Shown here one piece after another: positions 2,848 through 24,965 of a DNA stretch of 27,664 bases. Source of the DNA: a virus; IMG/VR virus record IMGVR_UViG_3300031726_000037, positions 1 through 27,664 of that record. One strand, written 5' to 3'. Position numbers and translations under genes: made by a program. The notes under the pieces are model-generated. The model was not told the origin of the DNA. It ran no database searches and saw only the letters and a program-made list of their open reading frames with translations. The first letter of the stretch is position 1; each line of letters starts with the position of its first letter.

Positions 2848-3045
2848 ATGAACACAGGTAGAATCAAGTTTTTTAATGAATCAAAAGGGTACGGTTTCAT
2901 TATCCCAAATGATGTGAATCAACAAGAGATTTTCTTTCATTGTACAAAAGTGCTGGGTAAAGTATCAAACGACGTAGAAGTCGAGTATGAAGTTGAAACA
3001 AACAAAAAAGGATTGGCTGCAATCAATGTAAAGCGGATTTCCTAA
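2848..3045 (+). CDS. Cold-shock domain protein (CspA-like)
   Basis: A complete 65-residue cold-shock domain protein that should bind single-stranded RNA or DNA. The RNP1 motif KGYGFI is at residues 13-18 and RNP2 at EIFFH (27-31); the N-terminal GRIKFFNESKG and the acidic middle strand are typical of the family. Such proteins melt RNA structure or act as antiterminators in bacteria. It sits alone between the large terminase and portal, 11 bases before the portal start, so it is expressed within the late operon. Its target is unknown: it could tune late phage mRNA or host mRNA. Family assignment is secure. Confidence 0.94.
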   Translation: MNTGRIKFFNESKGYGFIIPNDVNQQEIFFHCTKVLGKVSNDVEVEYEVETNKKGLAAINVKRIS

Positions 3046-11492: not shown

Positions 11493-12596
11493 ATGAACGT
11501 AAATATAGACTTATTTGGAAAAGGCGGGAGCAAAGGAGCGGTTGCTAACATGATTATGTCAAATGGTAAACTCAATCCCGGAACTATGCGCCCTTTTATT
11601 GGGAGTGATGGTAATTCGTATATCACTTTTTACAAGGGAGGTGATCCTAAAAAGCCCGATAGCTATTCCACGCAGAAAATAAACACCAATGCCACGCTTA
11701 GACGTGATGAGTGGAAGCAGCTTGATGAAGCTTTGCTTGCTGTATCGCGCCAACGTCTTGGTGGTGTTCAGGATTTGATTGACAGCGGCCTTACTTATAA
11801 TCTTGGGAATGCAATGGGAACTACCGTTCTCGAATACCATGATGTGAGTGATGCTATGGAAGCCGACATGACAATGGACGGTATTTCAAGGGGAAAGAAT
11901 GATCGCCCTGATTTCAATTATCACTATTTGCCAATCCCTATAATCCATGTGGATTATGAGATCAATTCACGCGAATTGGCCGCAAGTAGGAACTTAGGCA
12001 ACCCATTGGACACTATTGACGCTGAAACAGCAGCAAGAAAAGTTCAAGAAAAGTTGGAAACAATGTTGTTTACCAACACATCATATTCTTTCGGTGAAAA
12101 AGGTTCGAATGGCAGAAATACCATTTATTCCTATGTAAATCACCCAGACCGTAATTTGGTGACACTTGGCACACATTGGGATGACCTTTCGGTAGGTGAT
12201 CGCGGCCCTGCTGTAATTGAAGATGTGATTGCAATGAAACAAGCTTCCATTAATGATTATCATTATGGACCTTGGAAATTGTATATCCCTACCAATTACG
12301 AAACCGTATTGGATATGGACTACGATGCCACAACTCCGGGAACCACTATACGTGAGCGTATTTTGAAAATCGCTGGTATTTCTGGGATCAAAGTAGTGGA
12401 CACTCTGGCCGCTGACAATGTTCTTTTGGTTCAAATGACCAGTGATGTTGTTCGTTTAGTTCGTGGTATGGGCATTCAGAATGTCGAGTGGAAATCGGAA
12501 GGCAATATGGTCACTAACTATAAGGTTATGACAATACAGGTCCCACAGATCCGTTCTGACTACAATAAACGAAGCGGGGTTATACATCTTGCTTAA
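11493..12596 (+). CDS. Major capsid protein (HK97 fold, encapsulin-like)
   Basis: Probable major capsid protein of 367 residues. The middle has the pattern seen in encapsulin-like and DUF2184-type HK97-fold shells: YHYLPIPIIHVDYEINSREL, then ASRNLGNPLDTIDAETAARKVQEKLETMLFTN around residues 160-190. The C-terminal half has WKLYIPTNYETVLDMDY and the conserved-looking VLLVQMTSDVVRLVRGMGIQNVEW. The N-terminal 100 residues could form the arm. AGGAGG seven bases before ATG 11493 is among the best ribosome sites in the window. It is followed by an AT-rich hairpin whose core recurs after the tail tube gene. Gene order strongly supports the call; the exact family is less certain. Confidence 0.9.
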   Translation: MNVNIDLFGKGGSKGAVANMIMSNGKLNPGTMRPFIGSDGNSYITFYKGGDPKKPDSYSTQKINTNATLRRDEWKQLDEALLAVSRQRLGGVQDLIDSGLTYNLGNAMGTTVLEYHDVSDAMEADMTMDGISRGKNDRPDFNYHYLPIPIIHVDYEINSRELAASRNLGNPLDTIDAETAARKVQEKLETMLFTNTSYSFGEKGSNGRNTIYSYVNHPDRNLVTLGTHWDDLSVGDRGPAVIEDVIAMKQASINDYHYGPWKLYIPTNYETVLDMDYDATTPGTTIRERILKIAGISGIKVVDTLAADNVLLVQMTSDVVRLVRGMGIQNVEWKSEGNMVTNYKVMTIQVPQIRSDYNKRSGVIHLA

Positions 12597-12641: not shown

Positions 12642-13151
12642 ATGAAACGCACAAGTAAAGTAATTGAGGATACAAAGAATAAAGAGGTTGAAGAAGTTGA
12701 AATTAAATCAACACCCGCTGCCGATGCAATTGAACCGATAGCTGATATTGTAGAGGTAGAGGTAGAGGTAGAGGTAGAAGTTCCAATTGAAAAACCAGCA
12801 ATCGCCGCCAAACAGGAAGAAGTTCCTACTCAGGTTAAAATACGATGGAGGAATGATGGAGGCACTTTGCGATTTAGGAAAAATCAGATAATTAAACCGG
12901 GCGAAAAGTTCTCAGCATACCCGGACGAAATCCCAAAAGCATTTAGGGATGTTATCATAGCTTTGGAGCCTATTCAAGAAGGCCCAATTCGCCCGGAAAT
13001 CCCGACGAATGTTGTTATGCCTGTTTACAAAATGGAACCTGCTGAAAAAGAAGGTTTTTTTGACATTTACAATGGGAATGGTAAAAAAATGAATGAGTCT
13101 CCGCTTGAAGCAGAAATAGCCACACAATTAATCAAAGACCTACAAGGATAA
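12642..13151 (+). CDS. Hypothetical protein with Val-Glu repeat, capsid-adjacent
   Basis: A 169-residue protein in two parts. Residues 1-60 are acidic and low-complexity, with a run of Val-Glu pairs (VEVEVEVEVEV) written by a six-base DNA repeat. Residues 63-110 are folded-looking and basic-aromatic: VKIRWRNDGGTLRFRKNQII then KPGEKFSAYPDEIPKAF. The C-terminus ends in ATQLIKDLQG. I do not recognise a family. It lies between the capsid gene and the glycan cassette and overlaps the next gene by one base (TAATG). A small head or adaptor protein is plausible from position. Confidence 0.82.
   Translation: MKRTSKVIEDTKNKEVEEVEIKSTPAADAIEPIADIVEVEVEVEVEVPIEKPAIAAKQEEVPTQVKIRWRNDGGTLRFRKNQIIKPGEKFSAYPDEIPKAFRDVIIALEPIQEGPIRPEIPTNVVMPVYKMEPAEKEGFFDIYNGNGKKMNESPLEAEIATQLIKDLQG
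12750..12779 (+). repeat. GTAGAG microsatellite encoding Val-Glu pairs
   Basis: Four perfect GTAGAG units (12750-12773) and one near-perfect unit GTAGAA (12774-12779) stand in tandem inside the coding region. Units are six bases long, so gain or loss changes the protein by whole Val-Glu pairs without a frameshift. Confidence 0.9.
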
Positions 13152-13864
13152 TGTGGCAAGTCCCTGAGATATGGAAAAATGGGGAATGTTGGATATTAGG
13201 AGGGGGTCCGTCGATAACTGAACAATTCAACATACCCAAAAGGATTGTTAATGATGTCATAGAAGGCAGATCTACTCCTGATGCCTACTCTCCTTATATG
13301 AAAGCAATCCACGACAAACATATTATAGGCATTAACATGTCATATAAATTTGGGGATTGGATTGATATTGTATTTTTTGGGGATAATAGTTTCTTCCTAC
13401 GGGAAAAAAATGGATTGGCTTCTTTTCCGGGTATAAAAGTTTCAAGCCATCCCAACATTGAAAAATACCCGTGGGTAAAGTATGTAGGAAGAGATACAGC
13501 ACATTCAAAAGGGATAAGTAAAAATCCTAAAATGGTATCTTGGAATGGTAATTCTGGGGCCGCAGCAATTAGTTTAGCTGTTCATCTTGGTGTTAAGCGC
13601 ATCATATTGGTTGGATTTGATATGAAATTGGATGAAAGTGGGAAACAACACTGGCATGACTTGTACCATAGACTTGAAAATCTAAGCAGACCTATACCTA
13701 AAAATCAAAAACCAAAACCGGGAGGACTTCCATTCAATAGACACCTATTGGGATTTCCAGAAATTGCAAAAGATGCAAATCGGATGGGCGTGGAAATTTT
13801 AAATGCTAACCCGGATTCAGCCATTCAAGATTTCAAAAAAGTAAATGTATGTGATTTGATTTAG
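13151..13864 (+). CDS. DUF115 / MptE- and Maf-like protein
   Basis: A 237-residue protein of the DUF115 group, which includes archaeal MptE (a pterin pyrophosphokinase) and the Maf-type proteins that help attach nonulosonic acids to flagellin. GECWILGGGPSIT (residues 11-23) carries the Gly-rich GGGPS nucleotide-binding motif, and SGAAAISLAVHLGVKRI then ILVGFDM (near 133-156) is the characteristic second half. In this setting a sugar-transfer or glycan-related role is more likely than pterin synthesis, given the nine glycan genes that follow in the same operon. Substrate unknown. It overlaps the preceding gene by one base. Confidence 0.82.
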   Translation: MWQVPEIWKNGECWILGGGPSITEQFNIPKRIVNDVIEGRSTPDAYSPYMKAIHDKHIIGINMSYKFGDWIDIVFFGDNSFFLREKNGLASFPGIKVSSHPNIEKYPWVKYVGRDTAHSKGISKNPKMVSWNGNSGAAAISLAVHLGVKRIILVGFDMKLDESGKQHWHDLYHRLENLSRPIPKNQKPKPGGLPFNRHLLGFPEIAKDANRMGVEILNANPDSAIQDFKKVNVCDLI

Positions 13865-13872
13865 AATAGCTT

Positions 13873-14646
13873 ATGAATACAATTAGAGTCTGCGGTGGAT
13901 TGGGGAATCAGTTATTTCAATATGCGTTTGGTAGATTTCAAAAATCACGAGGGATTCGTGTAAATTATGATGTTTTATGGTATGAAACAAGTCAAAATCC
14001 GATCAGGCCATTGCTCCTTAATAAATTTAATATTGATTTAGGTGAGTTTAGAAGATTAAAATATGTTAGGTCAATAAGAGAACGTGGATTTGATCTACGT
14101 AGAATCATAGACATTGGTTTTAAATATAATGGATACTGGCAATCACCTTTATATCATAAAGGAATATATCAAATCTTAAAAGAAGAAATCAAAGTAAAAG
14201 AAGAGCACTACACAGAATCATTTCTGGAATTAAAGAAAGAGATTGAGAAAACTAACTCTGTTTCATTGCATGTTCGAAGAGGTGACTATTTGAATAATCC
14301 AAATCATCTGGTTTTACCATTAGAATATTACATGAAAGCTCTACGTGTGATTTCTGTAATATGCAGTGATATTAAAATATTTGTGTTTAGTGACGACATT
14401 GAATGGTGTAAACTTAATTTTTCAAATGCGACTTTTGTCGAAATAAACCCATATCTTGAATTAGAATTGATGTCTTTATGCAAACATAACATCATTTCAA
14501 ATAGCACATTCAGTTGGTGGGCCGCATATTTGAATTCTAATCCTGATAAAAAAGTAATAGCCCCTAAGCGATGGGTTGTTAAAAATGTGGATCAGGAATT
14601 GATTGAAAAAAAGAAACTTATTTTAAACGATTGGATAAAACTCTAA
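13873..14646 (+). CDS. Alpha-1,2-fucosyltransferase family enzyme (GT11)
   Basis: A GT11-family glycosyltransferase that would move L-fucose or a close relative such as L-colitose from a GDP-sugar to a galactose-type acceptor in alpha-1,2 linkage. All family marks are present in 257 residues: GGLGNQLFQYAFG at 8-20, the donor-binding HVRRGDY at 133-139, and SNSTFSWWAAYLN near 207-219. The length is slightly below bacterial members (about 280-300). Reductase and dehydratase genes able to make its donor lie about 4-5 kb downstream. Some GT11 enzymes of colitose-containing O-antigens use GDP-colitose, so the sugar cannot be fixed from this sequence alone. Confidence 0.93.
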   Translation: MNTIRVCGGLGNQLFQYAFGRFQKSRGIRVNYDVLWYETSQNPIRPLLLNKFNIDLGEFRRLKYVRSIRERGFDLRRIIDIGFKYNGYWQSPLYHKGIYQILKEEIKVKEEHYTESFLELKKEIEKTNSVSLHVRRGDYLNNPNHLVLPLEYYMKALRVISVICSDIKIFVFSDDIEWCKLNFSNATFVEINPYLELELMSLCKHNIISNSTFSWWAAYLNSNPDKKVIAPKRWVVKNVDQELIEKKKLILNDWIKL

Positions 14647-14649
14647 ACT

Positions 14650-15396
14650 ATGTTTGATATACTAATACCTTCGGCAGAAAAAGATTTTGTAAAATTTAAG
14701 TTTGTATATGACTCAATTGTTAAATATATCGAGGGATATAAAGGCATATTCTGCATATCCCCTGTTAAAGTTCCTGGTAATTTGAAAATAATAGGAGTCA
14801 ACTACTTTTTAGATTCTGATGTTATTGATTTTGACTTTAGTCTATACAAAGGCAACATTCAGAAAAGAACCGGGTGGTATCGTCAACAATTTGTAAAATT
14901 ATTTCAAAATGTAACCGGGGATGAATATCTCGTTACTGAATGTGATAATATATACAATAAAAAAGTAACAATCATTGAAGATGAGAAACCTGTATTTCTT
15001 TTAGGAAAAGATCAAAATCATAAACCATATTACGACATCACACAGAAGCTATTTGGGTTCGGTCGAGAATATCCGTATTCATTCATAAATGAAGTGATGT
15101 ATATAAAAAGAAATTTTGTAAATGAATTGGTTAGTTTACGCGGGCTGAATAAACATGGATTTTTTGGGTTGATTGCTTCTGAATTAAATAGAACGCAGGA
15201 AATAAGTGGACTTTCTGACTATGATTTATATGGTAATTTCGTTGCAAAATACCATAAAGATGCTTATCTATATAAACAAGTAGACACTGTAGTAACAGCC
15301 AAATTAAAAGAATGGTCCGCTGCTGAAATAAATAAGCATTTACAACAACATACAGCTTCAAATAACTCAATGATAAAAATACACTCATGGATTTAG
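14650..15396 (+). CDS. Probable glycosyltransferase (DUF6492-like)
   Basis: A 248-residue protein of a style found in polysaccharide clusters and seemingly related to DUF6492. It begins MFDILIPSAEKDFVKFKFVYD, a typical GT-A opening strand. GWYRQQFVKLF lies near residue 76, and DEYLVTECDNIYNKK near 90-105 may hold the metal-binding acidic pair in place of a classic DxD. YSFINEVMYIKR and a C-terminal helical region follow. It starts three bases after the GT11 gene and overlaps the next gene by ten bases, so it is part of the same translated chain. Donor and acceptor are unknown. Confidence 0.72.
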   Translation: MFDILIPSAEKDFVKFKFVYDSIVKYIEGYKGIFCISPVKVPGNLKIIGVNYFLDSDVIDFDFSLYKGNIQKRTGWYRQQFVKLFQNVTGDEYLVTECDNIYNKKVTIIEDEKPVFLLGKDQNHKPYYDITQKLFGFGREYPYSFINEVMYIKRNFVNELVSLRGLNKHGFFGLIASELNRTQEISGLSDYDLYGNFVAKYHKDAYLYKQVDTVVTAKLKEWSAAEINKHLQQHTASNNSMIKIHSWI

Positions 15397-16265
15397 TAAT
15401 GTTTCATAGTGGTGAGTTGCCAAAGTATATTCGCTATACTTTTAGTCAGATTAGATTATTTAACCCTGATTTAACTATTCATTTTATTACTGATAAAAAA
15501 CACATAATAGAGCAACCTACTTTATTTCACACATTTGGGGTTAAGGTGTATAATAAAGATGAATACTATTCTAATAAGATAGAAATGCTAACCAAACTTA
15601 TGGGGAGAGATCATGCCGATTTTTGGATGATTACTATGTCAAGGTTGGTTTATATTGAAACATTCATAGGATTGCATAATTTAAAGAATGTTTTCCATTT
15701 TGAGAACGATGTGCTATTGTATCGTTCTTTGTCCGAAATGTACGATACTTTTGATAAACTATATCCAAGTTTAGCTATTACACAAGGAAGTGAGCATAAA
15801 TGGATGACTGGGTTTGCTTTTATAAAGGACTACATCTCATTATCCAAAATGACCCATTTTTTTATCTATGTTTTACAGACATACGGGATAAAAGGAACTA
15901 TCAAAAAGTACGGGATGGATATGGTGCATGAGATGTCCCTCATGGCCGCATACCATAAAGAACAACCAAACAGGCTTGCCCCTTTGCCTACTTTACCGAG
16001 TTCTGATAATTTTAACGATTTCAATTCCATTTTCGATTCAGCAGCATGGGGTCAATTTGTGGGTGGTACGCAAAATGAAGGACCGGGAGCTAAACCGACA
16101 GACCATGATGTAAGTCGTGTATTAATCAATAACCCGACACATAGTGTAATTTGGAAATTAGATGATAAAAATAGAAAAGTTCCTTATTACAAAACCGAGG
16201 AAGATTGCATCAGAATAAATAACTTGCACATACATTCTAAAAATTTACATTTATACCTAAGCTAA
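15387..16265 (+). CDS. Probable GT-A-type glycosyltransferase
   Basis: A 292-residue protein with glycosyltransferase features. It begins MDLVMFHSGELPKYIRYTFS, a typical first strand and helix. FHFENDVLLYRSL (residues 104-116) sits where GT-A enzymes place the DxD-like metal site, and ITQGSEHKWMTGFAFIKD follows. The C-terminus CIRINNLHIHSKNLHLY resembles the closing His-containing motif of similar phage and capsule transferases. It overlaps its neighbours at both ends (10 bases and 1 base), so it is tightly coupled. The sugar is unknown. No signal or membrane segment is seen, so it should be cytoplasmic. Confidence 0.72.
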   Translation: MDLVMFHSGELPKYIRYTFSQIRLFNPDLTIHFITDKKHIIEQPTLFHTFGVKVYNKDEYYSNKIEMLTKLMGRDHADFWMITMSRLVYIETFIGLHNLKNVFHFENDVLLYRSLSEMYDTFDKLYPSLAITQGSEHKWMTGFAFIKDYISLSKMTHFFIYVLQTYGIKGTIKKYGMDMVHEMSLMAAYHKEQPNRLAPLPTLPSSDNFNDFNSIFDSAAWGQFVGGTQNEGPGAKPTDHDVSRVLINNPTHSVIWKLDDKNRKVPYYKTEEDCIRINNLHIHSKNLHLYLS

Positions 16266-16996
16266 TGGATTTTATACAGGGAGAACGCTTTAAAGAATTG
16301 GCAAATGATAAAGACATATTTTATTGCCACACACACCACTTACCTGATTTTTTAAAAAAAATGGAGGATCACGATCCGTATTATTTGATTACACACAATA
16401 GTGATAGAGGAACAAACATCCCGGCCCCAGATAATGTGATTAAATGGTATGCTCAAAATGTAAACATCAAAGATCCTAAAATAGAATCATTGCCTATTGG
16501 GATTGAGAACAATGAATGGCTTGCAAAAGCTTGTAAAAGAGGGGTATTACTTGATACTATGGAAAGTTCAGCGTGGCCGATATTAAATGTAGCCTATATG
16601 AATCATAATATAGCTACTAATCTAAAAGAAAGAGAGGGATTGTATCCTATGTTTAGAGATAAACCTTGGGTGACGATTAAAGAAGGTAGAAATGGAAAAG
16701 GGTTCCGTGATTATATCCATAATATCAGACACCATTTATTTACGTTTTGCCCGGAAGGAAATGGGATTGATACACACAGAACATGGGAGGTTTTGTATAT
16801 GGGCAGGATTCCAATTGAGAAGCGAAATATAAATAATCAATATTATACTGATTTACCTATATGTTTTGTTGATTCTTGGGAAGAAGTCACCTTGGAGTTC
16901 CTTTCGCTCGAACTCGAAAGGATAAAAACAACCACATGGAATTTTGATAAACTTACTTTTGATTACTGGAAAAATAAAATACAAAACCATGAATAA
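16265..16996 (+). CDS. Exostosin-like glycosyltransferase, copy 1
   Basis: A 243-residue protein whose C-terminal half resembles exostosin-type (GT47-like) transferases: HHLFTFCPEGNGIDTHRTW (156-174) followed by EVLYMGRIPI (175-184) matches the conserved pattern of a Pro-Glu/Ala-Gly-Asn-Gly loop, a basic residue and then E-x-L-x-x-G-x-(I/V)-P-I. It is shorter than full exostosins, as expected for bacterial relatives. The start shares the A of the previous stop (TAATG). The gene immediately downstream carries a second version of the same motif, so these two may be diverged duplicates that add related sugars. Confidence 0.73.
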   Translation: MDFIQGERFKELANDKDIFYCHTHHLPDFLKKMEDHDPYYLITHNSDRGTNIPAPDNVIKWYAQNVNIKDPKIESLPIGIENNEWLAKACKRGVLLDTMESSAWPILNVAYMNHNIATNLKEREGLYPMFRDKPWVTIKEGRNGKGFRDYIHNIRHHLFTFCPEGNGIDTHRTWEVLYMGRIPIEKRNINNQYYTDLPICFVDSWEEVTLEFLSLELERIKTTTWNFDKLTFDYWKNKIQNHE

Positions 16997-17840
16997 CGTA
17001 GGAATGATATGTGATCTATCTTATGATAGACATCATCTGTTTAAAAGCTATTACCATGCAATTGAAAATTTGTATGGCCCTCCTAAAATAGTGAAAACCG
17101 TGGATGATTTAAAAGGGATTAAAATACTATTCATTGGTGACGATCATTATACTCCGCACAAAATAGTTTGGCAACAGCCTGATTTTATTCCATATTGTAA
17201 TATCAACAATATAAAAGTGGTTGTGTTTACAAATGAGAAAATACTGAATTCTTTCTTTTCTTGGAATTCTGACAATCTAATCAAATTAAAAAAGATAAAA
17301 AATCTATATCACTATACAAGTGATGTGGAAGATTGCATAGCCTTGGGGACTAAAGTGAATCGGATGATTCCTTCCAAGAAGCTTAATGAAGCATTCACTA
17401 TTTGCTCCGATAAGAAAGATGCTGTTATATTTATTGGAAATGTAAACTGCCCACGGAATTCATATAGAAACAGAAAAAATGTTCTAGAACAGTTGCAGAA
17501 AATAATGTGCATTGATGTTGTTCCTCCAACTATCCCAAAATGGGAAGACTATTTGCTTCGGATTTCTGAATATAAATTTGTACTTTCACCCGCAGGGAAC
17601 GGAGACTTTTTCCCAATGCGATTTTATGAGATTTTGAACGTAGGCTCTGTTCCTATCCAACAAGTAACGGATAAAACATTAGAGTATTATGATATTGAAA
17701 AAGAATTTAAAAATTGCATCTTTTTCAAAGAAGTTGAAGAATTGAAGGAAAAGTTAGAATCTTTTGATCTAAAACAACAAAATCCATTTTGGTTGGAAGA
17801 TTATTTAATTGATACATTAAGAAAGGACGGTTTATTATGA
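16989..17840 (+). CDS. Exostosin-like glycosyltransferase, copy 2
   Basis: A 283-residue protein with the same C-terminal pattern as its upstream neighbour: YKFVLSPAGNGDFFPMRFY (195-213) followed by EILNVGSVPI (214-223). The N-terminal half has KGIKILFIGDDHYT (42-55) and a central DAVIFIGNVNCPRNSYRNR (144-162), as in GT-B-type nucleotide-sugar enzymes. The start at 16989 (MNNVGMICDLSYDRHH) is chosen because the longer TTG form only extends into the end of the preceding gene. Its stop overlaps the next start by four bases (ATGA). Donor unknown. Confidence 0.73.
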   Translation: MNNVGMICDLSYDRHHLFKSYYHAIENLYGPPKIVKTVDDLKGIKILFIGDDHYTPHKIVWQQPDFIPYCNINNIKVVVFTNEKILNSFFSWNSDNLIKLKKIKNLYHYTSDVEDCIALGTKVNRMIPSKKLNEAFTICSDKKDAVIFIGNVNCPRNSYRNRKNVLEQLQKIMCIDVVPPTIPKWEDYLLRISEYKFVLSPAGNGDFFPMRFYEILNVGSVPIQQVTDKTLEYYDIEKEFKNCIFFKEVEELKEKLESFDLKQQNPFWLEDYLIDTLRKDGLL

Positions 17841-19012
17841 TTCCATTAATGCGAAATACATTTATCAATGAGTTTTCCACTAAGACAGCTCTTGCTAATT
17901 TTATCAAGAATTCGGAAATATTAAGCATGAATACTCAATGCAGTTCTTTTGAGATTTCTTTTGCTCAGAAACAAGACCGGGATTTCGCTGTTCTTTTTAA
18001 TAGTGGAGGAAGTGCTAATTTAGCGTTGTTGCAAGCATTGAAGAATTTAGGTAGAATATCCGAAGGTGATAAAATTGGATTTTCTGCTCTTACATGGTCT
18101 ACCAATGTGATGCCTATTATTCAAATGGGATGTATTCCGGTAGCTATTGATTGTGAAATTGATTCATTGAATGTCAGCTCTAAAAAACTCACAGAAACTC
18201 TGAAAAAAGAAAAGTTAAAAATGGTGTTTTTAACTAATGCTTTGGGGTTTGTAGATGATATTTGGAATATAAAAGAGATTTGTGATTTAGGAGGCATCAT
18301 TTTAATTGAAGACAACTGTGAGTCTCTTGGTACTGAAACCCCCTATGGGAAAACTGGGAACTTTGGAGTAGCATCTACTTTTTCATTCTTTGTCGGACAC
18401 CACATGTCTACTATTGAAGGAGGTATGGTTTGTTCGGATGATGATGAATTGGTTGAAATGTTGAAAATTGTTAGAGCGAATGGATGGGATAGGAATTTGA
18501 CGTTACGGCAGCAAAGAACATGGCGAGAAAACAACGGTGTGTCTTCTGAGTTTGAAGCTAAATACACATTCTATGATTTAGGATACAATTTACGCCCTAC
18601 TGAAATCACCGGATTTTTAGGATTAAATCAATTACCTTATTTGGATGCTTCGGTAAGCAAAAGAGAGTCTAACTACATGTTGGTGGAATTTGCTATGCAA
18701 GATAATCCTGATTTTATATGCCCAAAACATAATAGGATTACAAAACTATCATCGTTTGCCATTCCTGTAATTTGTAAAACTCCCGAATTGCGAAAAAAAT
18801 ACTTAACCAAATGTGCTGATTTTGGTGTTGAAACAAGGCCGATGATTGCCGGGAACATCCAAAATCAGCCATTTTATTCTAAGTATGTTTTAGAGGAACA
18901 ATACACACCTAACAGTGATTTTCTACATACAAATAGTTTCTATTGTGGGAATTATCCTGAAATGACAGAAAATGATTTGAAAACAATACGTAAAATTTTG
19001 ACTAAAGATTGA
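17837..19012 (+). CDS. PLP-dependent sugar 3-dehydratase, ColD-like (His in place of Lys)
   Basis: A 391-residue DegT/DnrJ/EryC1-fold enzyme. Normal sugar aminotransferases bind PLP through a Lys in a segment like SFxxxKNxxxxGDGG. Here the segment is STFSFFVGHHMSTIEGGMV (180-198), with His188 at the Lys position. This swap marks the dehydratases ColD (GDP-4-keto-6-deoxy-D-mannose 3-dehydratase) and E1/RfbH (CDP-sugar). Other family marks are FNSGGSANLALLQAL (54-68), FSALTWSTNVMPI and the PLP-binding IEDNCESLG (157-165). The length is close to ColD, and I see no iron-sulfur Cys cluster as in E1, so ColD-like is preferred. From memory ColD also numbers this His 188. It stands next to a GDP-fucose-synthase-like gene, which fits a GDP-colitose pathway. 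Confidence 0.87.
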   Translation: MIPLMRNTFINEFSTKTALANFIKNSEILSMNTQCSSFEISFAQKQDRDFAVLFNSGGSANLALLQALKNLGRISEGDKIGFSALTWSTNVMPIIQMGCIPVAIDCEIDSLNVSSKKLTETLKKEKLKMVFLTNALGFVDDIWNIKEICDLGGIILIEDNCESLGTETPYGKTGNFGVASTFSFFVGHHMSTIEGGMVCSDDDELVEMLKIVRANGWDRNLTLRQQRTWRENNGVSSEFEAKYTFYDLGYNLRPTEITGFLGLNQLPYLDASVSKRESNYMLVEFAMQDNPDFICPKHNRITKLSSFAIPVICKTPELRKKYLTKCADFGVETRPMIAGNIQNQPFYSKYVLEEQYTPNSDFLHTNSFYCGNYPEMTENDLKTIRKILTKD

Positions 19013-19015
19013 TTT

Positions 19016-19954
19016 ATGAATAAAGATAGTAAAATACTGGTAACAGGTTGTCAAGGGATGCTTGGTTGGGCAATGGTCAGAGAATTGGATCAGTTGGGGT
19101 ATGATAATGTCAGTTGCATAGATAGAGTTGATTATGATTTATTAAATCAGCGTAGAGTATGGGAATTATTCGAGAAAGAAAGGCCCGAATACGTTTTCCA
19201 TATAGCTGCAAAAGTGGGAGGGATTTTTGCAAATGATTCACAAAGCGGAGCTTTTATTTATGAGAACTTAATGATGCAATGCAATGTGATTGAAGCCGCG
19301 AGGATTTATAATGTGAAAAAGCTTTTATTCTGTGGATCTGCTTGCATATACCCAAAAGACACAGCTCAACCAATCAAAGAAGACTCCCTTTTAACAGGCT
19401 CATTGGAAAAAACAAACATTGGATATGCGATTGCTAAAATATCAGGAGTTGTGATGTGTCAGATGTATAGAAAGCAATACGGATGTAATTTTGTTTCAGT
19501 AATGCCCACAAATATATACGGTAGAGGTGATAATTTCAATTCAAACACCGCTCATGTTGTTCCGGGGCTAATAAACAAATTCAACGATGCTAAGGTAAAT
19601 AAAAGCCTCTCAGTTGAAGTATGGGGCACGGGGGAAGCAAGTAGGGAATTTATCTATGTAGATGACCTTGCCAATGGGCTGGTGTTTGTTATGAACAATT
19701 ATGATGATTCCGAAGTAATCAATATTGGCTCTGGGGACATTATAAAAATAAAGGACGTTGTTCAAACCATAAAAGATGTAGTCCGGTATAATGGGGATGT
19801 GGTGTACAATGGGGTTTTGGAAGGGGTTAAAGATCGTAGCTTAGATATTTCTAAAATAACAGCACTTGGCTGGCAACCTAAAACAAAATTTGAAGACGGG
19901 GTTAAAGTAGTATATGATTGGTATTTGAATAATTATACATTTTTGAGAAAATGA
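19016..19954 (+). CDS. GDP-L-fucose or GDP-L-colitose synthase (Fcl/ColC-like SDR)
   Basis: An extended short-chain dehydrogenase of 312 residues resembling GDP-L-fucose synthase, which epimerises and then reduces a GDP-4-keto sugar with NADPH. Visible: NADP site VTGCQGMLG (9-17), KVGGI (66-70), GSACIYPK with S108 and C110 (107-114), YAIAK with Y137 and K141, SVMPTNIYG (161-169), NTAHVVP with H180, and WGTGEASREFIYVDDLA. All residues that I recall as catalytic in E. coli Fcl (S107, C109, Y136, K140, H179) are present one position later, so it should be active. ColC, which makes GDP-L-colitose, belongs to the same family. The ColD-like gene three bases upstream favours colitose; sequence alone does not decide. 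Confidence 0.92.
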   Translation: MNKDSKILVTGCQGMLGWAMVRELDQLGYDNVSCIDRVDYDLLNQRRVWELFEKERPEYVFHIAAKVGGIFANDSQSGAFIYENLMMQCNVIEAARIYNVKKLLFCGSACIYPKDTAQPIKEDSLLTGSLEKTNIGYAIAKISGVVMCQMYRKQYGCNFVSVMPTNIYGRGDNFNSNTAHVVPGLINKFNDAKVNKSLSVEVWGTGEASREFIYVDDLANGLVFVMNNYDDSEVINIGSGDIIKIKDVVQTIKDVVRYNGDVVYNGVLEGVKDRSLDISKITALGWQPKTKFEDGVKVVYDWYLNNYTFLRK

Positions 19955-20613
19955 GTAAGCAAAGAACAGTTGTTTTAGTATTGCGGAGCGGGAAAGATTT
20001 CACTATACAGGATGTTGAGTTGATTACACATCACATAAATAGTAAATGGAAGTATGAGATAAAGCCGAGAATTGTCTGTCTTTGGGATAAGGCTTCTCGT
20101 GCGTATTCTTTAGGTAACATCGAACTGATTCCATTAACAAATGATTATCCCGGAACTTGGTCGCGAATGCAACTGTACAGCCCAGAAATGGAAATGTACC
20201 GTCCTTTTCTTTACATGGATTTGGACACTGCTGTAATTTCTTCCTTGGAAAATATATTTGATTTAGTAAAAGATGAAAGTCAATATATCCCTTTGGAAGA
20301 TTTCTATCAAAAGAAACAACTTGCTACAGGGTTGGTTTGGTTCCCGGCCAATTCTGATAAAATTAAAAAAGTATGGAATTCATGGGATATATCAAAACTG
20401 ATTGGAGGTCGAATGGACTATTTTTTAAGGAAAGTTATTATTCCCGATTGTTTCTGGCAACAGTTGACGTATTCGATAGTTGATTTTAAGCCTAAACATA
20501 GGGAATTTCTAACGATCTTACCAAAAGGAACATCTTTGGTTTGCTTTCATGGAAAGCCCCGCATACCGAATGCTACGCATATAAAATGGGTTAATAATTA
20601 CGTAAACGATTAA
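19951..20613 (+). CDS. Glycosyltransferase with DxD motif (GT8/GT-A type)
   Basis: A 220-residue protein with a clear GT-A signature: FLYMDLDTAVISSLENIF (86-103), where D90 and D92 form the DxD site that binds the metal and nucleotide sugar. TWSRMQLYSPEM upstream (69-80) and LVCFHGKPRIPN near 193-205 are the supporting motifs commonly seen in small transferases of phage and capsule clusters. It overlaps the preceding gene by four bases and ends two bases before the next. Donor and acceptor unknown. It has no membrane segment. Confidence 0.85.
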   Translation: MSKQRTVVLVLRSGKDFTIQDVELITHHINSKWKYEIKPRIVCLWDKASRAYSLGNIELIPLTNDYPGTWSRMQLYSPEMEMYRPFLYMDLDTAVISSLENIFDLVKDESQYIPLEDFYQKKQLATGLVWFPANSDKIKKVWNSWDISKLIGGRMDYFLRKVIIPDCFWQQLTYSIVDFKPKHREFLTILPKGTSLVCFHGKPRIPNATHIKWVNNYVND

Positions 20614-20615
20614 TT

Positions 20616-21230
20616 ATGAAAATAAGCATCATCATCCCATATAAAGTAGATCGTGGTTGGTTAAAATATGCTGTTGATAGTGTTCCAAAAAGTGTGCAAT
20701 TAATCCTTAGCCAAGGAGAAGGGAACTGGCCTCAAAATTTCAACAAAGCCCTTTCTAAAGCAGATGGAGGCTTAATTAAGTTCTTACATGAGGATGATAT
20801 GTTATCCCCAATTGCAATACAAGCGTATATTGATGCTTTCACTTCTCCTGAATTTAAAAATATAGATTTTGCACACGGCTTGGCATACGAGGTTGATGCA
20901 AATGGCGTGAACATAGGCAGATTATATAAACCAAAGATTAAAAATCCATCTTTGTCTGATTTGCTTATAACCAATGTAATTCACAGCGCATCCTTGATAT
21001 ATCGAAGAGAGGTGTTTGGTAAAATAGGGGGATTTGATGAAAGCCCAAATGTGCATTCATTTGAAGAATATGAATTTAACTTACGTTGTTTGAAAAATGG
21101 TTGCAATATCGGATATATTGGCGTACCTTTAGCGTATTATAGAAGACACCCTAATCAGATAATTCGGACTTGTGATATAGTTCAAAGAAAACAAAACAGA
21201 GCAAACCTATTAAAAAGTTACGGAGCATGA
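20616..21230 (+). CDS. Family 2 glycosyltransferase
   Basis: A 204-residue GT2-type enzyme. It starts MKISIIIPYKVDRGWLKYAV, the usual nucleotide-binding strand, has the acidic metal site FLHEDDMLSP at 57-66, and later FGKIGGFDESPN and SFEEYEFNLRCLKNG, the common acceptor-side pattern with the catalytic acidic residue. It ends AYYRRHPNQIIR, again typical. It is shorter than average GT2 enzymes but complete in motifs. It overlaps the sulfotransferase gene by four bases (ATGA). The transferred sugar cannot be told. Confidence 0.9.
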   Translation: MKISIIIPYKVDRGWLKYAVDSVPKSVQLILSQGEGNWPQNFNKALSKADGGLIKFLHEDDMLSPIAIQAYIDAFTSPEFKNIDFAHGLAYEVDANGVNIGRLYKPKIKNPSLSDLLITNVIHSASLIYRREVFGKIGGFDESPNVHSFEEYEFNLRCLKNGCNIGYIGVPLAYYRRHPNQIIRTCDIVQRKQNRANLLKSYGA

Positions 21231-21934
21231 TTCAAGCGAATGTAGACAGGCCTATTTTTGTAACAGGAGCGCAACGTTCCGGTTCTTCTATTATTGCTCG
21301 CATCATAAGTTTATCCGGAGGATATGCCGGGAATGTATCGCATATGTACGAAAATGTAAATATCCGCAAGGAAGTTGATTTGCATTACTCTACAATGGGG
21401 ATGTTGAACCCGACACAATTCCAGTTTCCTTTGCCAAATACAAAAGAACTGTTGATTCCTATCAATTGGAAAGATCGAATACTACATGCTATATCACAGG
21501 GGCAAGTCCCAACAGAAGATGAAATATTTTGGATGTATAAAGGATATAGCCTTTGTCAAGTATGGCCGATATGGAATTATGCCTTCCCAAATGCAAAGTG
21601 GATTATTGTTCGGCGCAGAACGGGGGATATTGTATCTTCCTGTATGAAAACAGGATATATGTCTGCTTTTAAAGACAAAGATATTCAAAAAGCCGTAGGT
21701 GTTTCTAATGAACAGGACGGTTGGATATGGTGGGTGAATGAGCACGAGAAGTTATTCATTGAAATGATTGATTCTGGTTTGAATTGCAAAATTATCTGGC
21801 CAGAAAGAATGGTAAATGGTGATTATTCTCAAATATGGGAAATGCTTGAATGGCTTGACTTAAAATGGCATGATTCTATAATCAAAACCATAGACCCGAT
21901 GTTGTGGAATTCTAAGCAAAAAGATAAAAAATAA
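21227..21934 (+). CDS. Sulfotransferase (PAPS-dependent)
   Basis: A 235-residue soluble sulfotransferase that would move sulfate from PAPS to a hydroxyl or amino group, here most likely on a sugar. The 5'-phosphosulfate loop is IFVTGAQRSGSSIIAR (10-25) and the 3'-phosphate site is IIVRRRTGDIVSSCMKTG (126-143), with Arg and Ser in the expected places. A C-terminal part rich in Trp (DGWIWWVNEHEK) may contact the acceptor. It is the last gene of the cassette and is followed after five bases by the first connector gene. Sulfated glycans from a phage would be unusual; acceptor unknown. The family call is firm. Confidence 0.87.
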   Translation: MIQANVDRPIFVTGAQRSGSSIIARIISLSGGYAGNVSHMYENVNIRKEVDLHYSTMGMLNPTQFQFPLPNTKELLIPINWKDRILHAISQGQVPTEDEIFWMYKGYSLCQVWPIWNYAFPNAKWIIVRRRTGDIVSSCMKTGYMSAFKDKDIQKAVGVSNEQDGWIWWVNEHEKLFIEMIDSGLNCKIIWPERMVNGDYSQIWEMLEWLDLKWHDSIIKTIDPMLWNSKQKDKK

Positions 21935-21939
21935 TATTT

Positions 21940-22329
21940 ATGGCAACAAGAGTCACACCTGATGAAGTAAAAGAGATAATGGATGGGTTAACAGCAACCG
22001 ATTCCATTATAGAAACATTTATCACTGCGGCAAGTGCCGTAATAGATCAAGTGTTTGCTGGTGACACAGTGATTAGTTCTACACTGTTGAAGGAACTTGA
22101 AAGATGGCTAACAGCTCACTTTATAGCATCTACCATTTTTAGAATGGCCTCGGAAGAGAAATTAGGTGAAGCTCAAATGAAGTACACCGGAAAATGGGGT
22201 GAGAATTTAGCCTCCACTTCATACGGCCAGACGGTGAAGCTGCTTGACATCACAGGTAAAATGAGTCAAGTAGGAAAGTCCGCAGCAACAATATTTGCAG
22301 TTACAAGTTTTAACACGAGCGCAGAATGA
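21940..22329 (+). CDS. Head-tail adaptor (DUF4054 / gp6-like)
   Basis: A small helical protein of 129 residues in the position of the head-tail adaptor that docks on the portal. VTPDEVKEIMDGLTATDSII then ETFITAASAVIDQVF and LERWLTAHFIAS resemble the helical DUF4054/gp6-like connector fold. A Gly/Ser-rich loop (GQTVKLLDITGKM) follows. It starts the four-gene connector block and overlaps the next gene by four bases. The call rests on pattern and synteny; no catalytic function is expected. Confidence 0.78.
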   Translation: MATRVTPDEVKEIMDGLTATDSIIETFITAASAVIDQVFAGDTVISSTLLKELERWLTAHFIASTIFRMASEEKLGEAQMKYTGKWGENLASTSYGQTVKLLDITGKMSQVGKSAATIFAVTSFNTSAE

Positions 22330-22721
22330 GCATAACTGGATTTTTAACAAAGACATGTACTCAAACAGCGGTATATTGGGGCTACCCACACAATGACGGC
22401 CAAGGTGGTTTTACGTATGATTCACCAAGGGAAATAAAGTGCAGGTGGGAAGATCGCAATGAGACGTTTGTCGCTCCAAATGGAGATGAGGCTGTTTCTA
22501 AATCAGTTGTGTATGTGCTTGAAGATTTAGAACAAGAAGGATATTTGTATTTAGGTACTTTGGATTCTTTATATGATAGTGCTGAGAGTTCAGGAATCAC
22601 ATTAGATCCAAGTGAGATAGATGGTTGTCAACGGATCAAAAGATTTGATAAACTCCCAGCATTAAGCTCTACTTCTGAATTTTTAAGAAAGATATATCTA
22701 ACCAGTAAAAACATGGTGTAA
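22326..22721 (+). CDS. Head closure / head-tail stopper-like protein
   Basis: A 131-residue beta-rich protein between the adaptor and the gp10-like gene, where stoppers sit. TAVYWGYPHNDGQGGFTYD then SPREIKCRWEDRNETFVAPN is typical of phage stopper proteins, which have strands around a conserved CRWE-like segment. The C-terminus ends KIYLTSKNMV. It shares one base with the next start (TAATG). Assigned by gene order and the CRWED motif; moderately sure. Confidence 0.75.
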   Translation: MSITGFLTKTCTQTAVYWGYPHNDGQGGFTYDSPREIKCRWEDRNETFVAPNGDEAVSKSVVYVLEDLEQEGYLYLGTLDSLYDSAESSGITLDPSEIDGCQRIKRFDKLPALSSTSEFLRKIYLTSKNMV

Positions 22722-23230
22722 TGGCTAAAACATACTCTTTAGGTGATACAGGGATTAAGGGGTTTGACGATGTAATGCGAAACCTTAATGAAGAAATACA
22801 GAAGATTGAAGGGCGAACTATACAGGGCATTATTAAAGCTGCGATAGACATTCGTAGGGATATGGCTTCTACACCCCCTTTAATTCCTATAAAAACAGGA
22901 AACTTGCGAGCATCTTGGTTTATTGTAACGGCAAAAGGAGTAGAAAGCAAACCTCCTGTATTTGATAATTCAGAAAAAGGGGCTGCTAAAGTGCAAGAAG
23001 CGTATAATGCTTCAATTTCTGAGGCGCAAAGCACTGTGGCAGCATCAAGTAAAGAAAATCCTTTTCTTGTTATGGGATTTGGAGCTAATTATACGATGCC
23101 TGTGCATGAAATGATAGGTGATATTGAATGGTCAGCTAAAAATACAGGCCCTAAATTTTTTGAAAGTGCTTTAAAAAGAAGAAAAGATGCTGTTTTGAAA
23201 ATTATACGAGATAATGCTCAAATAAAATGA
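22721..23230 (+). CDS. HK97 gp10-like neck / tail completion protein
   Basis: A 169-residue protein of the HK97 gp10 group, which joins tail and head. The family pattern is present: a helical N-terminus, then PIKTGNLRASWFIVTAK (near residues 55-70) and PFLVMGFGANYTMPVHE (near 112-128), the latter a classic gp10 signature. A 40-residue Ala/Ser-rich insertion lies between them. The C-terminal helix FFESALKRRKDAVLKIIRD also fits. It is six bases before the tail terminator gene. Confidence 0.87.
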   Translation: MAKTYSLGDTGIKGFDDVMRNLNEEIQKIEGRTIQGIIKAAIDIRRDMASTPPLIPIKTGNLRASWFIVTAKGVESKPPVFDNSEKGAAKVQEAYNASISEAQSTVAASSKENPFLVMGFGANYTMPVHEMIGDIEWSAKNTGPKFFESALKRRKDAVLKIIRDNAQIK

Positions 23231-23236
23231 TAAACA

Positions 23237-23650
23237 ATGAACCCAACATCATTTGATATAAAAGATATTTTAGAGTCGGAAAGTTCTTTAGGGCTGATCT
23301 ATGCTACAAATCTTTTTATAGGAAAAGAGCCAGCCACACCAAAGAACACAGTAACGATATTTGACACTCCGGGATTCCCGGATGAACTGTTGCTCACAGG
23401 AAGTGAAAAGGGAGGGAGTTATCAGTACCCAGCGGTTCAAATCAGGGTTCGCAGTACAAAATACATTGACGGATACAATCTTATAGAAAACATAAAGAGT
23501 GTGCTACATGGCCGGGCAAACGAGACATGGGGTGGTTCTTTATATTCAGTAATCAAATGTTCCAGTGGTCCCGCATTGTTGGATTGGGATGATAATTCAA
23601 ATGCAAGATTCATTTGTAACTTTGACCTGCAAAGAAGAAGTGGATATTAA
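23237..23650 (+). CDS. Tail terminator-like protein
   Basis: A 137-residue protein with the build of tail terminators (minor capsid / DUF3168-like): an N-terminal helical stretch, VTIFDTPGFPDELL in the middle, YPAVQIRVRSTKYIDGYNLI (the most telling part), ENIKSVLHGRANE and a final strand RFICNFDLQRRSGY. It lies between the gp10-like protein and the tail tube, which is the standard place. It would stop tail tube growth and form the joint with the head. Family name uncertain, role likely. Confidence 0.78.
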   Translation: MNPTSFDIKDILESESSLGLIYATNLFIGKEPATPKNTVTIFDTPGFPDELLLTGSEKGGSYQYPAVQIRVRSTKYIDGYNLIENIKSVLHGRANETWGGSLYSVIKCSSGPALLDWDDNSNARFICNFDLQRRSGY

Positions 23651-23676
23651 TTTAAAATTAAAAAGGAGGTAAAATT

Positions 23677-24114
23677 ATGAGTAATGCTAAAGCAGGTGTT
23701 GGCACTTTATTTCGCAGGTGGAACACCGTCACCCATAAATGGGTAAACATCGCTGAAATAAACTCTATTACCGGCCCAAGTATGTCAAGGGACACGATAG
23801 ACGTGACCAGCCTTGACTCAACAGGAGGGTACAGGGAGTTTATAACCGGATTTCGTAAAGCGGGAACAGTTGCTCTCAAAATGAATTTCACTCGTCCAAC
23901 GTATGAGCTAATGAAAGACGATTTTGAGAATGATGCGTTACAAAATTACGAAATTGTGTTGCCGGACATTGAAAACACAACGATTGAATTTGAAGGTCTT
24001 GTTACAGAATTACCTTTAACCGTACCAGCGGATGATAAAATGACTGCTGATGTGACTATTCAGGTATCTGGGCAAGTGACTATCAATTCAGGAGCAAGTT
24101 CAGGTTTAACCTAA
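23677..24114 (+). CDS. Major tail tube protein
   Basis: A 145-residue tail tube subunit. It begins AGVGTLFRRWNTVTHKW, and INSITGPSMSRDTIDVTSLD (near 28-47) is the hallmark of the siphovirus tube family; GGYREFITGFRKAGTVAL and a C-terminal VTIQVSGQVTIN strand complete the fold. AGGAGG seven bases before ATG marks strong expression, as expected for an abundant protein. It is followed by a hairpin with a T run and then the chaperone genes. No sheath gene lies between terminator and tube, which fits a non-contractile tail. Confidence 0.93.
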   Translation: MSNAKAGVGTLFRRWNTVTHKWVNIAEINSITGPSMSRDTIDVTSLDSTGGYREFITGFRKAGTVALKMNFTRPTYELMKDDFENDALQNYEIVLPDIENTTIEFEGLVTELPLTVPADDKMTADVTIQVSGQVTINSGASSGLT

Positions 24115-24128
24115 ATTGCTTTAAATTT

Positions 24129-24153
24129 AATACTAATCAAGTATTTGTTTTTT
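24129..24153 (+). terminator. Hairpin with T run after the tail tube gene
   Basis: AATACT (24129-24134) pairs with AGTATT (24140-24145) around the loop AATCA, followed by TG and six T (24148-24153). The stem is AT-only except one pair, so it is a weak terminator, perhaps leaving abundant tube mRNA upstream and less downstream. Its core TACTAATCAAGTA is identical to that after the capsid gene. Confidence 0.45.
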
Positions 24154-24154
24154 A

Positions 24155-24182
24155 ATTTTAATCATTAAAATATTTTAATCAT
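24155..24182 (+). repeat. Inverted repeat and direct repeat at the chaperone start
   Basis: ATTTTAA (24155-24161) pairs with TTAAAAT (24165-24171) around TCA. The 11-base word ATTTTAATCAT is repeated directly at 24155-24165 and 24172-24182, the second copy running into the ATG at 24181. It may hide or expose the start of the chaperone gene, but all-AT repeats are common in this DNA. Confidence 0.4.
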
Positions 24183-24612
24183 GGGAATGTTAGACAAGTC
24201 GATGCTGTTAACGAAACAAGCATTAAAAGTTGAAAAAGTTGAATTTGAAAATGGTGATTTTGTTTATGTTCGGGAAATGACCGGAAAAGATCGGGACAAT
24301 TTCGAAAATTCTATTTTAAAAGCCCGCCGTGATGCCAAAGGCGACATAAAAGGGTACGATCAGGTAATGGATAATTTCCGTTCTAAACTGGCCGTTGTTA
24401 CTTTGTGTGACGAAGAAGGTAGTCTATTGTTTGAACCAACCGATGCTGATAAATTAAGTTCCAACATAAGTATCACTTATTTGGAAAAGATTGTTGAAAA
24501 AGCATCATCATTGAATGCTATAACCCCAAAAGATAAAGAAGAGTTGATAAAAAACTCAGAAGCCGACCCGGACGGCAATTCCAGTTTAGACTCTGCCGGG
24601 AACTTGGAATAA
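24181..24612 (+). CDS. Tail assembly chaperone, short form (gpG-like)
   Basis: The 143-residue short product of the tail assembly chaperone pair, which coats the tape measure during tail assembly and is absent from the virion. It resembles gpG-type proteins: FENGDFVYVREMTGKDRDNF near 20-40, DNFRSKLAVVTLCDEEGSLLF near 62-84, and a helical C-terminus. Position between tube and tape measure is diagnostic. A slippery heptamer at 24549 (codons 123-125) allows a fraction of ribosomes to shift into the downstream frame and make a longer fusion. Non-shifted ribosomes stop at TAA 24610-24612. Confidence 0.88.
   Translation: MGMLDKSMLLTKQALKVEKVEFENGDFVYVREMTGKDRDNFENSILKARRDAKGDIKGYDQVMDNFRSKLAVVTLCDEEGSLLFEPTDADKLSSNISITYLEKIVEKASSLNAITPKDKEELIKNSEADPDGNSSLDSAGNLE
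24549..24555 (+). promoter_or_regulatory. Programmed -1 ribosomal frameshift site A AAA AAC
   Basis: The heptamer A AAA AAC is in exact phase with the short chaperone frame (codons AAA 24550, AAC 24553), matching the X XXY YYZ rule for -1 slippage. The -1 frame is closed by TAA at 24534 and open from 24537 on; the zero frame stops at 24610. So the shift must happen in 24537-24609, and this is the only in-phase heptamer there. A possible stimulatory hairpin CGGCA (24573-24577) / TGCCG (24594-24598) lies downstream, and CCCGG/CCGGG is an alternative pairing. Confidence 0.85.
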
Positions 24613-24965
24613 TCCACCCAGATTACCTATTGGATCAATTAACGTCCTTTCAAATAAGTGAGTGGGAAGTGTACGATAGAATTGATCCAATAGGCACATG
24701 GCGGGAAGATTCTCGGTTTGCAAAATTAGAAGCTTTGATTCAAAATTTAGTAAGTTCAATATATTGCTCAAAGGGGGAAACTCCGAAATTAGTAACACCC
24801 GAAGATTTAATGCCTGATTGGACAGGGGAAAAGAAACAACAGGAAGAGAAAACACAATCAGTAGAAGAAATGAAAGCTATATTTATGAGTATAGCACGAG
24901 AGCAAAACAAGAAAGTGGAACGCTTGAATATGAAAACACCTCCTCCTAAAAAGAAGGGTAACTAA
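24555..24965 (+). CDS. Tail assembly chaperone extension (T part, made by -1 frameshift)
   Basis: The downstream half of the tail chaperone, equivalent to the T part of lambda gpGT, which binds the tape measure or tail tube. It has no good start codon: the first candidate is TTG at 24630, but convincing sequence (RELGIIHPDYLLDQL) begins before it, showing the frame is entered from upstream. After the slip at 24549-24555, reading goes LRSRPGRQ, then the conserved-looking GIIHPDYLLDQLTSFQISEW and a Lys/Pro-rich end KTPPPKKKGN. Full fusion: 24181 to 24965, about 260 residues. It ends 11 bases before the tape measure start. Confidence 0.83.
   Translation, partial: LRSRPGRQFQFRLCRELGIIHPDYLLDQLTSFQISEWEVYDRIDPIGTWREDSRFAKLEALIQNLVSSIYCSKGETPKLVTPEDLMPDWTGEKKQQEEKTQSVEEMKAIFMSIAREQNKKVERLNMKTPPPKKKGN

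Follow-up and report, generated by a model that had tools for sequence, protein, structure and literature searches.

The analysed stretch of DNA (the window) is 27,664 nt long and comprises positions 1-27,664 of the IMG/VR record IMGVR_UViG_3300031726_000037. It is part of a tailed-phage genome, with genes for the small and large terminase, the portal, a Mu-F-like protein, the major capsid protein, tail proteins and the tape measure. The matches of the terminase and capsid proteins were all distant and spread over phages of many hosts, so that they point to no particular host. The structural genes enclose a block of sugar genes (13151-21934), which is bounded by the capsid gene and a small gene (12642-13151) on one side and by a DUF4054 gene on the other (Table 1). 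All genes of the block are on the same strand and the intergenic gaps range from -10 to +8 bases, thus the block is probably co-expressed with the late structural genes. The gene preceding the ColD-type gene overlaps its start by 4 bases, and the gene of the short-chain dehydrogenase/reductase (SDR) starts 3 bases after it.

Three proteins encoded outside the block were noted by reading. A 65-aa protein (2848-3045, GRIKFFNESKGYGFI), encoded between the terminase and portal genes, is cold-shock-domain-like. A 709-aa protein (5800-7929), which had no Pfam match, appears right-handed beta-helix-like; its gene separates the Mu-F-like gene from the capsid module. The small post-capsid gene encodes the run VEVEVEVEVEV; its counterpart in the viral contig L003 is shorter (123 vs 169 aa) and lacks the run.

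Table 1. Positions of the capsid gene, the sugar-gene cassette and its key residues in the window
Feature	Position	Strand	Evidence or remark
Major capsid protein	11493-12596	+	PF19774/PF09950 and phage major capsid proteins; cassette downstream in late operon
MptE/DUF115-like or sialyltransferase-like protein	13151-13864	+	PF01973 below cut-off; phrog_4603 E 1.5e-28
GT11 transferase (alpha-1,2-fucosyl/colitosyltransferase kind), 257 aa	13873-14646	+	PF01531 E 4.8e-29; HVRRGDY motif
Cassette protein, no family match	14650-15396	+	L003 counterpart 69% identical
Cassette protein, no family match	15387-16265	+	L003 counterpart 60% identical
Cassette protein, no family match	16265-16996	+	Possibly exostosin-type transferase-like, by reading
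Cassette protein, no family match	16989-17840	+	Three other genes in its place in L003
Predicted ColD-type PMP-dependent nucleotide-sugar 3-dehydratase, 391 aa	17837-19012	+	PDB match, predicted fold, tree clade
Cys161 codon	18317-18319	+	Position computed from residue number; coupled to His188
PLP-site segment FVGHHMSTIEGG, residues 185-196	18389-18424	+	Homologous segment in all His-type relatives
His188 codon CAC	18398-18400	+	Place of PLP-Lys in aminotransferases
SDR, GDP-L-fucose synthase / GDP-L-colitose synthase (ColC) kind, 312 aa	19016-19954	+	NF047922 and conserved residues
Glycosyltransferase-like protein	19951-20613	+	phrog_1962
Family 2-like glycosyltransferase	20616-21230	+	PF10111
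Sulfotransferase, last cassette gene	21227-21934	+	PF13469
DUF4054 protein, first after cassette	21940-22329	+	Slightly below curated cut-off; putative head-tail connector

Residues of the cofactor site

The original prediction placed a histidine, His188, at the position of the PLP-binding lysine in the DegT-fold protein, and alignment with His188 of E. coli ColD bears this out. The coordinates given there for the PLP-site segment (18393-18431) are shifted by a few bases and do not follow the reading frame. The catalytic residue is the first His of an HH pair. The mutant ColD chains in the PDB, H188N (3b8x), H188K (2r0t) and S187N/H188K (3gr9), differ at the first His of this pair, which identifies it as the catalytic one, and it is this residue that aligns with His188 of the window protein. 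In the viral relatives the second His varies (HT, HQ, HI) and the first is invariant. The alignment provided no candidate for a Schiff-base lysine: there is none within 15 residues of His188, and K172, 16 residues away, is the sole Lys in the span from residue 160 to 210.

For a wider comparison 212 DegT-fold sequences, collected from the relatives of the window protein and from their neighbourhoods, were aligned. Only two residues occurred in the catalytic column, His (186 of the 212 sequences) and Lys (26). Without exception, position 161 was Cys where the catalytic column had His and Ala where it had Lys, which, as the sequences are related and partly redundant, is to be read as a clean rule and not as 212 independent events. 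The His at the catalytic column is not a chance replacement. Asp159 and Ser183, which we take to be the ligand of the cofactor ring nitrogen and the serine of the PLP site, respectively, were present in 212/212.

Nearest structures, predicted fold and phylogeny

Searching the PDB with phmmer returned E. coli O55 ColD first (2gms, E 1.4e-52), followed by E1 (1.1e-40) and the putative 3-dehydratase 9wvy (1.6e-27); Lys-type enzymes appeared from 9e-20 on. The AlphaFold2 model of the protein had a pLDDT of 96.6. The modelled fold was closest to ColD among solved structures (Foldseek E about 3e-34; VIA-align Z 49-50, best 50.1, rmsd 2.0 Å over 379 residues). In the VIA-align comparison ColD was followed by E1 (Z 46.6) and then by aminotransferases (46 and lower), with the Lys-type GDP-perosamine synthase at 44.6. 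The latter (3bn1), a 4-aminotransferase whose substrate is GDP-4-keto-6-deoxymannose, has the same fold as the window protein but Lys in place of its His. The shared fold alone cannot separate ColD, E1 and the aminotransferases; the residues and the tree do.

The window protein and ColD of E. coli O55:H7 (2gms, 3b8x) have in common the full-length DegT fold, His188, Cys161, Asp159, Ser183 and Glu162, the lack of an Fe-S motif, a neighbouring gene for an Fcl-type SDR and a GT11 gene in the same cluster. They differ in that their identity is ~30%, residue 187 is Gly in the window protein and Ser in ColD, and the window gene is phage-borne, with no gmd in the window. E1/RfbH, the CDP-4-keto-6-deoxy-D-glucose 3-dehydrase (3bcx), shares the fold and the catalytic His but needs a reductase. 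E1 and SpnQ bind a [2Fe-2S] cluster via four Cys residues, which ColD does not have (PMC8987622). Except for Cys161, which is also found in ColD, the E1-type Cys positions are occupied by Leu or a gap in the window protein; three of the four positions are not Cys. Cys 249, 251, 260 and 263 of the E1-type protein L006_E1 correspond to Leu, Leu, gap and gap. The viral E1-type controls (L173-L198) do show the CxC...CxxC pattern.

A maximum likelihood tree was built from 67 thinned rows by a quick search, with SH-aLRT as the only measure of support. All Lys enzymes were on one side (starred support, 100). The His enzymes split into the clade with Fe-S cysteines (99, starred) and a second group (99, starred), which consisted of the ColD clade and the window clade. 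The ColD clade (100, starred) comprised E. coli ColD and 12 viral sequences. Viral and cellular sequences were mixed in the window clade (98, starred), which was sister to the ColD clade; the window protein was not inside the latter. The cellular relatives, with up to 65% identity, came from Bacteroidota, Elusimicrobiota, Patescibacteria, Verrucomicrobiota and others. By sequence, the window protein is a member of a widespread sister clade of ColD. To our knowledge the window's own clade has no characterised member.

Gene neighbourhoods of the relatives

In 63 non-redundant viral loci the genes within 7 kb included one for an Fcl-type SDR in 45, gmd in 40, GT11 in 27 and all three in 20. Of 76 non-redundant cellular loci, 69 had the SDR gene nearby, and in 58 it directly adjoined the dehydratase gene. 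A stricter rule, the same for both viral sets, demanded gmd at 45% identity or above (at least 45%) within 7 kb. By this rule gmd was found at 34/58 ColD-type vs 2/17 E1-type viral loci (Fisher p 7e-4) and the Fcl-type SDR at 36/58 vs 1/17 (Fisher p 5e-5), while the frequency of GT11 was not different (p 1.0); these p values are indicative, because some neighbourhoods of either set are truncated at contig ends and the rows still include close relatives. The enrichment of gmd and SDR ties the ColD-type viral enzymes to sugars derived from GDP-mannose.

Two contigs resemble the window closely. L002 matches positions 16573-24953 at 99.99%. L003 has the same block, likewise placed and flanked by the same structural genes, with counterparts in order that are 59-77% identical (dehydratase 72%, SDR 72%); the capsid protein is 86% identical. 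Only the gene preceding the dehydratase is replaced in L003 (L003:7611-9995). Since the pair was retained while its neighbour was swapped, the dehydratase and the SDR behave as a kept unit; they are adjacent in the window, in L003, in L005 and in L006.

The replacing genes of L003 were, by reading, FAD-oxidoreductase-like, Gfo/Idh-like and methyltransferase-like. In the viral contig L005 (L005:10001-14068) the dehydratase, an Fcl-type SDR and two transketolase halves are encoded in a row. Transketolase halves accompany the dehydratase in L014, L045, L061 and L089 as well, and branched 3,6-dideoxy sugars are possible products there.

The adjacent SDR and the GT11 transferase

The SDR scored 372 bits on the GDP-L-fucose synthase model NF047922, under the equivalog cut-off of 500. 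It keeps Ser107, Cys109, Tyr136, Lys140 and His179 of E. coli Fcl; as Fcl has the same set, these residues are common to the ColC and Fcl kinds. The SDR shares 41% identity with E. coli Fcl and 34% with O55 ColC, but ColC and Fcl are themselves only 39% identical, so identity distance does not decide between the two kinds. The nearest rows in the SDR tree were Fcl_Ec and Patescibacteria SDRs, with weak support and in no starred set. From its sequence the enzyme is expected to be a C5-epimerase and C4-reductase.

The GT11 protein matched PF01531 with 102 bits (cut-off 23.9), with LHVRRGDY in the alignment. A sequence search of the PDB gave no match for it. It is 31% identical to WbgN of E. coli O55. 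WbgN is a GT11 colitosyltransferase which also uses GDP-fucose (PMC11987014); the presence of GT11 is therefore not proof of colitose. The trio colD-colC-GT11 (wbgN) of E. coli O55:H7 matches the set of ColD-type enzyme, SDR and GT11 in the window. In RefSeq the members of the O55:H7 trio are labelled 'DegT/DnrJ/EryC1/StrS family aminotransferase', 'GDP-L-fucose synthase family protein' and 'alpha-1,2-fucosyltransferase', respectively.

Enzyme class, substrate and product

We are highly confident that the enzyme is a PMP-dependent C3-dehydratase. The original prediction had preferred a 3-dehydratase to an aminotransferase, and His188, the ColD-type clade, the missing E1 Fe-S cysteines, the fold and the GDP-sugar neighbourhood support that preference. 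It also holds that an aminotransferase label misleads: PHROGs (PHROG 3139), the RefSeq entries of cyanophages and that of E. coli ColD all carry it. Such labels, from Pfam and PHROGs, speak for an ordinary sugar aminotransferase despite His188. So does SpnQ, a His enzyme that transaminates in the absence of its reductase, which means that His is not an absolute bar to aminotransfer; ColD and E1 were without such activity in the same comparison (PMC8987622). Every Lys enzyme, however, is in another clade. Moreover, conversion of ColD to an aminotransferase reportedly requires H188K and S187N together, as in 3gr9. We rejected the aminotransferase reading on the grounds of His188/Cys161 and the tree, and consider it extremely improbable. 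Hardly more credible is a reductase-dependent dehydratase of the E1/RfbH or SpnQ kind acting on a CDP or dTDP sugar. It would have the same fold and the same His, and the top-scoring NCBIfam model was RfbH, though its 206 bits are far below the cut-off of 423. Against it stand the absent Fe-S cysteines, the position outside the E1 clade, a cassette in which no E3-like reductase was recognised, and a gmd/Fcl linkage unlike that of the E1-type viral loci. With these loci as control, the Fe-S cysteines and the clade led us to reject the E1 reading.

For the C3-dehydratase a GDP sugar is the likely substrate. The same chemistry on a GDP-6-deoxy-4-keto-heptose has a precedent in Campylobacter C3-dehydratases, which are 62-67% identical to ColD and use GDP-heptose (PMC10440746); the chain length is thus not fixed by homology to ColD. 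The gmd homologues that adjoin the viral relatives are, however, 45-74% identical to GDP-mannose dehydratases, and no heptose kinase, isomerase or guanosyltransferase was recognised in the cassette, which makes a heptose improbable. A more serious alternative, though still an unlikely one, accepts the dehydratase and takes the SDR for a true GDP-L-fucose synthase. The cassette would then make GDP-fucose, as donor for the GT11 transferase, and, separately, a GDP-4-keto-3,6-dideoxy sugar, to be reduced by a host enzyme or converted to a different 3,6-dideoxy sugar or a branched one. The identity of the SDR to E. coli Fcl does exceed that to O55 ColC, the SDR is weakly grouped with Fcl_Ec, GT11 enzymes can use GDP-fucose (PMC11987014), and the transketolase halves beside the dehydratase in L005, L014, L045 and L061 hint at branched sugars there. 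In the window, however, no transketolase was recognised, and the only SDR of the cassette directly follows the dehydratase, the two having stayed together in L003 through the exchange of the preceding gene; the distance to ColC loses its force when ColC and Fcl are themselves so far apart. The cassette probably builds colitose or a close relative, and GDP-colitose is the product that we favour, less firmly than the GDP substrate.

Proposed pathway

From His188, the clade, the fold, the missing Fe-S cysteines, the conserved SDR and GT11 residues and the gene order we infer, with a probability of roughly 0.7, that a ColD-type C3-dehydratase and the SDR make GDP-L-colitose for attachment by the GT11 transferase. 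The reaction would follow the dehydratase mechanism described in PMC8987622. PMP would form a Schiff base with the 4-keto group of GDP-4-keto-6-deoxy-D-mannose, His188 would remove a cofactor proton, and the C3 hydroxyl would depart. Hydrolysis of the enamine would give GDP-4-keto-3,6-dideoxymannose and ammonia, and glutamate would restore PMP, without need for an iron-sulfur reductase. The SDR would most likely epimerise C5 and reduce C4 to yield GDP-L-colitose, which the GT11 transferase could attach to a virion protein or to a host surface polysaccharide. No gmd gene turned up in the window or on the 75 kb L003 contig, where the sole family match was the SDR itself; the Gmd 4,6-dehydratase step would therefore have to be supplied by the host or by an unsequenced part of the phage.

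Related cassettes in other phages and possible role

About 50 Synechococcus phage records matched, and one genome each of S-CAM7 and ACG-2014f was read. Like the window, both have a GDP-sugar cassette with a His-type enzyme (L007:6049-9903 and L008:6047-9960, respectively), in the order gmd-fcl-[His enzyme]-GT11. They differ from it in having their own gmd, a dehydratase that is 31% identical, and Synechococcus as host. Their dehydratases are labelled aminotransferase or CDP-4-keto-6-deoxy-D-glucose-3-dehydrase. The uncultured huge phage LR756502 (L006) has a dehydratase 59% identical to that of the window, with the SDR directly upstream; it differs in its genome of 642 kb, deposited unannotated, and in an extra E1-type Fe-S paralogue.

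The original prediction knew of no well-described phage ColD, but homologues do occur in many public phage genomes. The viral AMGs reported from marine viromes include rfbH, ascC, ddhC, gmd and fcl (PMC10653327). In a cyanophage paper phage GDP-fucose genes were described as cell wall genes (PMC9602691). Within the partial coverage of our literature search we found no paper joining phages with ColD, colitose synthesis or a colitose pathway. His188 with Cys161, as opposed to Lys with Ala161, gives a two-residue rule for a class of phage genes that are labelled 'aminotransferase' where the sequences indicate a 3-dehydratase. With re-annotation, a 3,6-dideoxy sugar replaces an amino sugar as the predicted product.

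The late-operon position, the many transferases and the sulfotransferase are compatible with a decoration of either the virion or the infected-cell surface. Since 3,6-dideoxyhexoses at the ends of O-antigens are strongly antigenic, a phage making one could alter adsorption or shield its own particle. Glycosylation of capsid and tail proteins by phages is known, as are phage-induced changes of host serotype (work cited in PMC12619734). A wider idea, which we put forward tentatively and at somewhat below even odds, is that a portable GDP-L-colitose cassette, often gmd-colD-colC-GT11, is present in unrelated phages (cyanophages, huge phages and this one) and places colitose on virions or on the infected-cell surface. 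If true, this would be a phage strategy so far undescribed in the literature searched.

Two minor observations concern these phages. The sugar blocks of S-CAM7 and ACG-2014f include genes for an adenylylsulfate kinase and an annotated galactose-3-O-sulfotransferase, respectively, and that of the window ends with the PF13469 sulfotransferase. In LR756502 the E1-type paralogue (L006:22559-23860), with HH and CHCVG...CGTC, is encoded 6 kb from the ColD-type gene, as if two different 3,6-dideoxy sugars were made.
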